Source: Geoalkalibacter ferrihydriticus DSM 17813
GTDB taxonomy: Bacteria > Desulfobacterota > Desulfuromonadia > Desulfuromonadales > Geoalkalibacteraceae
DNA length: 64,000 nucleotides
Direction of reading: 5' to 3'
Assembly (NCBI RefSeq): GCF_000820505.1
Contig: NZ_JWJD01000003.1
Span: forward strand, 340,411-404,410
Part shown: positions 57,941 through 59,429 of the stretch, in pieces
Position numbering within the stretch: position 1 is the first letter of the stretch
Layout: every line of letters begins with the position of its first letter
Position numbers and translations under genes: made by a program
Notes under the pieces: model-generated
Database searches by the model: none
The model's input: the letters and a program-made list of their open reading frames with translations, nothing else
What the model was told of the DNA's origin: nothing

Positions 57941-58381
57941 ATGGAGAATTTTTCTTTTGTCATGCCGTACAAAGTGCGCGTCGTGGACATCAACTACGGC
58001 GGTCATGTCTCCAATGCTGCGGTGCTCAACTACTTTCAGGATGCCCGCATTGCCTATCTTGCCGCTCTCGGCCCCTATTCCGAACTCGATATCGGCAACG
58101 GCTGCGGCCTGATCATGCCCGAATCCCACGTGCACTATCATGCGGAAATGTTTCACGGTGAGGATCTGAATATCGGCGTGCGGACCCACCTGTTAGGGCG
58201 CTCGTCCTTTGAGCTTGCGTACCGTATTGAACGCGGCAGCGAACTGGTCGCCGAAGGCACCACGCCCTTGGTCGCCTTCGATTATCAGGCTCGCAAACCA
58301 CGCCGCCTGCCCGCCGCGTTCAAAGAGTCCCTGGCTCGGTTTGAGAGACTCGATCCACGCAATCCGCCCGAGAAGTGCTAA
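57941..58381 (+). CDS. acyl-CoA thioesterase, 4HBT hotdog family
   Basis: 146 residues. Hotdog-fold thioesterase: YKVRVVDINYGGHVSNAAVLNYFQDARIAYLAALG holds the position equivalent to the catalytic Asp of 4-hydroxybenzoyl-CoA thioesterases (VDINYGGHV); RSSFELAYRIERGSELVAEGTTPLVAFD follows. Hydrolyses acyl-CoA of unknown chain length. AAGGA just before ATG 57941 and AGGGAG further up; longer frames into mutM rejected. Confidence 0.85.
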   Translation: MENFSFVMPYKVRVVDINYGGHVSNAAVLNYFQDARIAYLAALGPYSELDIGNGCGLIMPESHVHYHAEMFHGEDLNIGVRTHLLGRSSFELAYRIERGSELVAEGTTPLVAFDYQARKPRRLPAAFKESLARFERLDPRNPPEKC

Positions 58382-58429
58382 GCTTATAGATAAAACAGAC
58401 AACAGACAACGGACAAAACGGAGGTCATC

Positions 58430-58744
58430 ATGCCTGTCCCCCGTATCAGCCCCGCAGAAGCACGAAGCAAGGTACAGAACGGCTCAGGATTGCTGGTTTG
58501 TGCTTACGCCGAGCCGGAGAAGTTTTCGCAAAATCACCTGGAAGGAGCCCTGTCGCGGCAGGATTTCGAGGCGCGCCTTGGTGAAATTTCGAAAGACACG
58601 GAGATCATCTTTTACTGCGCCTGAACAGCGGAACACAGTGCTGCCGGTCTGGCGGCCGAATACCGCAAGCAGGGTTACGAAAACGCTAAAGCTTTGCTGG
58701 GTGGCGTAAAAGGATGGCAGGAAGCGGGCTTTAAGCTGATTTAG
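58430..58744 (+). CDS. rhodanese-family selenoprotein (UGA = Sec65)
   Basis: 104 residues when the UGA at 58622-58624 is read as selenocysteine. Reading on restores the rhodanese fold: IIFYCA-U-TAEHSAAGLA then LLGGVKGWQEAGF, and a TAG stop at 58742. C63 aligns with the classic rhodanese Cys and Sec is two residues later (CxU). A hairpin with a GGUCU loop lies 21 nt after UGA (see next feature). GGAGG precedes ATG 58430. Likely a persulfide or redox enzyme of sulfur/selenium handling. Related Sec-containing rhodanese proteins are known from deltaproteobacteria. A simple nonsense-mutated pseudogene is the alternative. Confidence 0.8.
58622..58656 (+). promoter_or_regulatory. UGA codon with bacterial SECIS-like hairpin
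   Basis: After UGA (58622-58624), GCTGCC (58640-58645) pairs with GGCGGC (58651-58656), five Watson-Crick pairs and one U-G, closing loop GGUCU (58646-58650). A GGU at the loop tip 16-37 nt after UGA is the SelB recognition feature; E. coli fdhF has the same GGUCU loop. Confidence 0.75.
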
Positions 58745-58836
58745 CGAGCCTCAGGTCTCCTTGAGTTTGCCCGGGGTTGCCCATAAAGGGTACTCATGAG
58801 AAGGTCAACATTAGGCCAAGCTTCCGGACGTTTCTG

Positions 58837-58877
58837 ACAAGAAAAAAGCCTGCCGTGGGGGCAGGCTTTTTTCTTGT
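58837..58877. terminator. bidirectional terminator
   Basis: Perfect 18-bp inverted repeat with GCCTGCC core flanked by A6 and T6 (58837-58854 and 58860-58877). Serves the rhodanese gene and the convergent FKBP gene. Confidence 0.92.
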
Positions 58878-58898
58878 TTAAAAAGGGTTGGGTTGCGA

Positions 58899-59429
58899 TT
58901 AGTTGCCGGGCAGAATTTCGACAAGCTCGAATTCGAAATTTAGTGCATTGCCGGCCAGGGGATGATTTCCGTCAAGGGTAATGCTGTCGGGACTGACCGC
59001 TGCCACCCATACGGGAAATCCCTCATCCTCATTCTCATCGTCATCGCCGGCGAGTTCAAGCATTTCACCTTCTTCGGGGTCCATATCCGGGGGCAGGTCG
59101 CTACGCGGCACTTCAAAAACCATTTCAGCGCTGCGCTCGCCATAGGCGTCCGCGGCTTCCAGACGTACGGTGCGGCTTTCGCCCGGACTCATTCCGATGA
59201 TGGCCTGCTCGATGGCGGGGAAAACTTCGCCGGCACCGACAGTGAACTCCAGAGGTTCGGCCTCACAGCCGCAATCATCTTCAGTGCTGCCGCAGCCCTG
59301 ACCTTCGTGCTCACCTTCGCAGCCGCAATCATCATCGTTGCAGTCTTCGGAGGATTCAAAAATGGTTCCGTCATCAAGGCGACCGATAAAGTGCAGCCTT
59401 ACCCGGTCGCCGGTTTTTACCTGGGTCAT
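58899..59429 (-). CDS. SlyD-like FKBP peptidyl-prolyl isomerase with Cys-rich insert
   Basis: 176 residues. Begins like SlyD/FKBP (VKTGDRVRLHFIGRLDDGTIFESSE), continues EFTVGAGEVFPAIEQAIIGMSPGESRTV, an IF (insert-in-flap) chaperone domain, and returns to the FKBP fold with GNHPLAGNALNFEFELVEI. An unusual acidic insert at about 28-58 holds six Cys (30, 35, 37, 46, 53, 55) and His41, with two DDCGCE units. It looks like a metal site, placed at the N-terminal side and not the C-terminal tail as in E. coli SlyD. AAGGA precedes ATG 59429. Confidence 0.88.
   Translation of the reverse strand: MTQVKTGDRVRLHFIGRLDDGTIFESSEDCNDDDCGCEGEHEGQGCGSTEDDCGCEAEPLEFTVGAGEVFPAIEQAIIGMSPGESRTVRLEAADAYGERSAEMVFEVPRSDLPPDMDPEEGEMLELAGDDDENEDEGFPVWVAAVSPDSITLDGNHPLAGNALNFEFELVEILPGN

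Follow-up and report, generated by a model that had tools for sequence, protein, structure and literature searches.

A rhodanese-like frame that continues through UGA

The window, that is, the whole 64-kb stretch of Geoalkalibacter ferrihydriticus DSM 17813 analysed here, contains a short gene in which an ATG is followed by 64 sense codons, a UGA and 39 further codons before a TAG at 58742-58744 (Table 1). These coordinates agree with the preliminary description, which had read the locus as a 64-codon rhodanese-like frame continuing beyond its UGA. It had also proposed a C-A-U motif in the rhodanese active-site loop. The protein context of the UGA is IIFYC63-A-U65-TAEHSAAG, and the match to the Pfam Rhodanese model (PF00581; 35.6 bits, gathering cut-off 22.2) extends over residues 28-99, with the UGA inside it. 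From sequence comparison, we infer that the gene encodes a selenoprotein with Sec at codon 65 (probability about 0.97). It is very probably a small single-domain protein of rhodanese fold, a confidence that applies to its identity and not to its chemistry.

Table 1. Positions of the selenoprotein gene and associated features in the window
Feature	Position	Strand	Remarks
Predicted selenoprotein CDS, 104 residues	58430..58744	+	UGA read as Sec at codon 65, TAG end; 40 copies in 38 genomes
Shine-Dalgarno sequence GGAGG	58420..58424	+	Sequence; 5 nt before the ATG
Cys24 codon TGT	58499..58501	+	Invariant in 40/40 subfamily rows; region is D-x-R in other rhodaneses
Cys63 codon TGC	58616..58618	+	Rhodanese catalytic Cys position; UGA in 2/40 copies
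Sec65 UGA codon	58622..58624	+	UGA in 39/40 copies
Putative bacterial SECIS hairpin with a 6-bp stem and the loop GGUCU (58646-58650)	58640..58656	+	Conservation, folding, covariance model
Inverted repeat resembling a terminator, flanked by runs of A and T	58836..58879		Between the rhodanese gene and the convergent FKBP-like gene

AlphaFold, given an input alignment of 17 sequences of which 16 were distant, predicted a rhodanese fold (pLDDT 84.5, with a lower block mean of 73 near Cys24) close to GlpE and other sulfurtransferases. In alignments, the active-site loop exceeds that of YCAV rhodaneses by a net two residues. The convergent neighbouring frame (58899-59429, minus strand), which we take to be FKBP/SlyD-like, has a Cys-rich insert, CNDDDCGCEGEHEGQGCGSTEDDCGCEAE. 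A crude ORF comparison across 40 loci found no conserved partner gene; the only ORF cluster present in at least four of them, presumably fumarate hydratase, comprises three loci from the window's genus and one other.

The earlier proposal depended on Sec machinery in the same genome, and this was found. The source genome (3.84 Mb in 23 contigs) encodes a tRNA-Sec (C3:665-756, 75 bits) and consecutive selD, selB and selA genes (C1:138571-142956; 370.7, 392.8 and 615.7 bits, respectively), all scoring over their cut-offs, and its selD carries an in-frame TGA of its own. Among the genomes with a copy of the rhodanese gene, selB is above the cut-off in 36 out of 38, including 29 out of 29 of good quality; the two remaining assemblies are 81% and 78% complete.

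Codon 65 in a subfamily of 40 copies

Using the window protein as a query, with Cys standing for Sec, we searched 136 genomes of the order. Sixteen close copies came from 15 genomes, and a gap in E from 8.5e-25 to 4.3e-11 set them apart from all other matches. A profile made from 15 of these copies was searched against 395 genomes sampled from the phylum, with at most 12 candidates scored per genome. It retrieved 25 close copies in 24 genomes, down to an E of 1.2e-33, after which came a degraded copy at 2.1e-24. One further copy was present in genome G527, and eight genomes around G309 added none. With double counting removed, the subfamily totals 40 copies in 38 genomes.

These 40 rows were picked by score, not by stop codon, and two degraded copies (L136 and L070) lie outside them. 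A UGA stands at codon 65 in 39 of them and a UAA in the remaining one (L051); Cys was found in none of the 40, although the Cys-for-Sec query would have favoured it. Apart from this single UAA, the random stops or frameshifts in relatives that the preliminary description had named as evidence against its reading were not seen among the 40.

The UAA copy, a second one in genome G133, retains both frame and hairpin, which suggests either a recent nonsense mutation of a paralogue or a mistake in the assembly. As for the degraded copies, L136 (genome G214) has kept the UGA and lost both the frame and the would-be SECIS stretch, and L070 (genome G012) is truncated before the active site and the UGA position.

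A scan of genome contigs requiring the motif [IV]FYC[AN]C[PT]xE, which is not exhaustive and is the sole evidence from beyond the phylum, gave 23 loci, all distant, and no subfamily member with Cys. Only distant CxC rhodaneses (L071-L093, L120) were seen to have Cys where the subfamily has Sec. Those of Pseudomonas, Acidobacteriota and others (L071-L093) resemble the subfamily in the loop length up to GY/GL in most rows, but have Cys in place of Sec, no SECIS-like hairpin and 25-50% identity over the matched part.

Relationship to known rhodanese selenoproteins

The nearest model is NF041203 (rhodanese_LYCAU), which scores the window protein at 54.3 bits, below its curated cut-off of 115; the C-x-U loop that it specifies is present as FYCAU. 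All 15 profile members match this model with E no higher than 0.001, the lowest being 2e-19, two subfamily members with a UxU motif score 64.5 and 60.9 bits, and five listed subfamily copies score 58.7-63.0. NF041203 is catalogued as 'rhodanese-like form 3, CxU', with one Sec, in the selenoprotein listing of PMC13188914, and a CxU rhodanese form is also among those listed in PMC9312934. This kind of selenoprotein is, therefore, already known.

The subfamily shares with NF041203 the rhodanese domain, the Cys-x-Sec loop and a SECIS of equal shape and spacing, but it falls below the cut-off, on a separate branch, and has Cys24 where NF041203 has D-x-R (54 out of 54 NF041203-type rows). These rows, like those used in the SECIS and codon comparisons, were chosen for having a TGA, so Sec in them is not an independent result. 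The 40 copies make up one side of a branch with a bootstrap of 94 and an SH-aLRT of 97 (97.5 in a quick tree), which the tree tool marks as neither shown nor rejected. Cys24 is a third invariant residue that the subfamily adds to the proposed chalcogen pair. A true NF041203 member is also encoded in the source genome (C3:305639-306007, 141.3 bits, one TGA).

Other known proteins are further away. TsoB (NF045694), a rhodanese/DsbD fusion-like selenoprotein with a UxxxxU motif, likewise has a rhodanese domain with Sec, but differs in motif and size, and the window protein scores 18.7 bits against its cut-off of 805. The thiosulfate sulfurtransferase GlpE shares the fold, with an rmsd of 2.0 to 1gmx across 97 columns, but its model (NF001195) gives the window protein 24.5 bits, below a curated cut-off of 102. 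GlpE is not known to contain Sec.

Judging from the sequences compared, what appears to be new is a separate Cys24 branch for which no Cys form was found, together with repeated U-x-U forms. In the literature on LYCAU/NF041203, only the 2026 review was relevant, and the Cys24 branch may have been noticed before. Since a gene caller that applies the standard code would end the frame after 64 codons, and the NF041203 cut-off excludes this branch, the gene is probably misannotated.

A conserved SECIS-like hairpin

The hairpin downstream of the UGA folds with six pairs at -9.4 kcal/mol. The preliminary description was right about the 6-bp stem and the loop GGUCU, but it placed the stem 21 nt after the UGA, which is where the loop begins; the stem itself starts 15 nt past the UGA. 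The bacterial SECIS model, in the passages of PMC13188914 that define it, comprises a loop of 3-9 nt with G in the first two positions, a stem of 4-16 bp, a spacing of 16-37 nt and an energy of at most -7.5. With a 5-nt loop beginning GG, 6 bp, a spacing of 21 nt and its folding energy, the hairpin lies within all of these bounds. The same loop letters are present in fdhF of Escherichia coli K-12, as had been claimed, but there they start 18 nt after the UGA, instead of 21, and the stem is different; a covariance model of the rhodanese SECIS (55 rows) gave no fdhF match at E up to 1. An Rfam scan of 58300-58900 found no SECIS family among 35 matches at E ≤10, all of which scored below the gathering score, with most located on the terminator-like repeat, on both strands.

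Shuffled sequences folded as well as the hairpin in 4 out of 200 cases for the 17 nt and in 15 out of 200 for a 23-nt stretch. A longer fold of 69 nt did not stand out (z -0.58, matched by 47 of 200 shuffles), so the case for a SECIS rests on conservation and not on energy.

Conservation was assessed by redrawing synonymous codons 2000 times in 37 of the 40 subfamily copies (L051, L134 and L142 excluded). The pairs at third codon positions (21-33 and 24-30, with the U of the UGA as the start of the numbering) are formed in 72 of 74 cells, against a null mean of 30.2, and the loop U27 is present in 34 copies (null 4.4). Neither count was reached in any of the 2000 draws (0/2000), a figure that overstates the significance because kin sequences are treated as independent and codon use is pooled. 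The complete six-pair stem is present in 25 of the 37 copies, against 4.0 under the null; its outermost pair is found in 29 and missing from 8, and two other pairs are missing from 2 copies each. The NF041203-type rows (n=23) gave 46/46 third-position pairs and 23/23 for U27. The corresponding counts in 24 Cys relatives, 15/48 and 0/24, are no better than the null, and by this third-position test the SECIS-like hairpin is absent from them. We read these values as strong indications, not exact probabilities, that the hairpin has been selected as RNA.

A covariation test on 55 aligned rows (L124 left out) with 500 shuffles pointed the same way in two of its measures. Cells with compensatory two-sided change numbered 67, against 29.2 after shuffling, and the covariation score was 0.409, against 0.157 when shuffled and at most 0.103 when slid; none of the 500 shuffles reached either value. 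For the same 55 rows, neither the number of stem pairs with two-sided change (3, reached by 352 of 500 shuffles) nor that of pair types (7, reached by 490) was above the shuffles. Pair 20-34, which is C-G versus G-C between two subfamilies, forms part of the covariation signal. A covariance model built from 55 relatives, all outside the window's genus, scored 35.4 bits at exactly 58622-58666, with a next best of 10.1 in the 64 kb; it also captures coding conservation, giving four Cys relatives 14.9-17.0 bits at or close to the corresponding site.

Two more frames in the source genome are worth recording. On contig C5, a tandem double rhodanese (L137:865-1596, plus strand) has an in-frame UGA in FYCLGRT-U, a C-x4-U motif reminiscent of that of TsoB, and the SECIS covariance model matches exactly at this UGA (C5:151634, 18.1 bits, E 0.1). 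On contig C10, a rhodanese-like frame (L138:684-1319, plus strand; 39.9 bits to NF041203) reads YCP-UGA, that is, C-x-U; among the SECIS-model matches listed, for which 150 of 2524 candidates were scored, none with E up to 1 falls on it.

A second UGA at the catalytic Cys

In two subfamily copies, L110 (G309) and L113 (G465), UGA also occupies codon 63, giving FY-U-S-U and LY-U-A-U. The NF041203 search of the 395 genomes yielded 83 matches over the cut-off. A single TGA occurs in 63, one of which has a TAA as well; 11 have two TGAs, 1 has a TAA only and 8 have none, the place of single TGAs having been read only in the loci opened. The 11 double-TGA matches and L132 (108.6 bits, below the cut-off) are all Y-U-x-U (12/12), which brings the U-x-U genes to 14, 2 in the subfamily and 12 in or near NF041203.

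Mapping the two motifs onto a tree takes a minimum of 11 changes between C-x-U and U-x-U for 99 rows, with L051, L229 and L230 left out of the count and L192 (TGA plus TAA) not in the tree; a tree with eight U-x-U rows takes 6. The number is approximate because many branches are weakly supported, but U-x-U is likely to have arisen several times. The term 'UxU' is absent from the main text of the 2026 review (PMC13188914), although such forms may have been noticed earlier elsewhere, and in the literature searched it occurs together with a selenoprotein for SELENOP only.

With a UGA for the catalytic Cys as well in no fewer than 14 relatives, a single SECIS hairpin would act on both UGAs. Their starts are 6 nt apart, one lying 27 nt and the other 21 nt from the loop, and each distance falls within the 16-37 nt of the model.

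Elsewhere among the NF041203-type rhodaneses, L229 and L230 have Cys-x-Ser at the Cys-x-Sec place, and L225 resembles them with a TAA just before that place.

Alternative readings and proposed chemistry

If the UGA were a real stop, the locus would be a pseudogene or encode a truncated protein of 64 residues, and the downstream codons would be a relic. Decay does happen in these genes, as in the TAA copy L051, the frameshifted L136 and the truncated L070, but conservation of the downstream codons and of the hairpin spans an order and reaches further, the same UGA recurs in 39 of 40 copies, and selB is over the cut-off in 36 of 38 genomes. We regard this reading as extremely improbable. In the selenoprotein reading, SelB with tRNA-Sec would insert Sec at UGA 65, guided by the hairpin 15 nt downstream. 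The protein might then be an ordinary sulfurtransferase, with Cys63 carrying the sulfane sulfur and Sec65 merely tuning its reactivity. In line with this, both Pfam and the fold comparison match it to sulfurtransferases, GlpE among them, and Cys63 is retained in 38 of 40 copies, but Sec replaces Cys63 in 14 relatives and the loop, CAUTAEHS, has no Arg. In yeast RDL2, the loop Arg is reported to be critical for transferring sulfane sulfur (PMC8533005); the same paper states that Thr, present in the loop here, can stand in for that Arg. A plain sulfurtransferase seems, on balance, somewhat doubtful.

Binding of soft metals or metalloids, or delivery of selenium, through the Cys/Sec cluster would involve no redox chemistry. 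The CXU and UXU motifs of SELENOP are described as cadmium-binding in PMC11818150, and the subfamily has three conserved chalcogen residues, yet no adjoining gene family recurs except one shared mainly within the genus, and the rhodanese catalytic position is retained; we consider this function unlikely. A two-chalcogen redox pair is favoured by the CxC of the distant Cys relatives, the U-x-U of 14 relatives and the two-residue-longer loop. A persulfide or polysulfide would donate sulfane sulfur to Cys63, the usual acceptor, Sec65 would attack the Cys63-bound sulfur, sulfide would leave, and a Cys63-Sec65 selenenylsulfide would form, to be reduced by cellular thiols or thioredoxin. Cys24 may be a third redox residue. 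The selenenylsulfide chemistry suggested in the preliminary description is plausible, and as the likeliest of these functions we tentatively propose, at slightly under even odds, a persulfide reductase rather than a plain sulfurtransferase.

More generally, we lean towards CxU rhodaneses forming a tunable chalcogen pair, with the U-x-U ones working through a Sec-x-Sec diselenide or paired selenols and having one SECIS for two UGAs. The natural series of C-x-U, U-x-U and C-x-C in one small fold makes the contribution of selenium at each of two nearby positions of the active site directly testable, and it also lets one ask whether a single SECIS drives two closely spaced Sec insertions.
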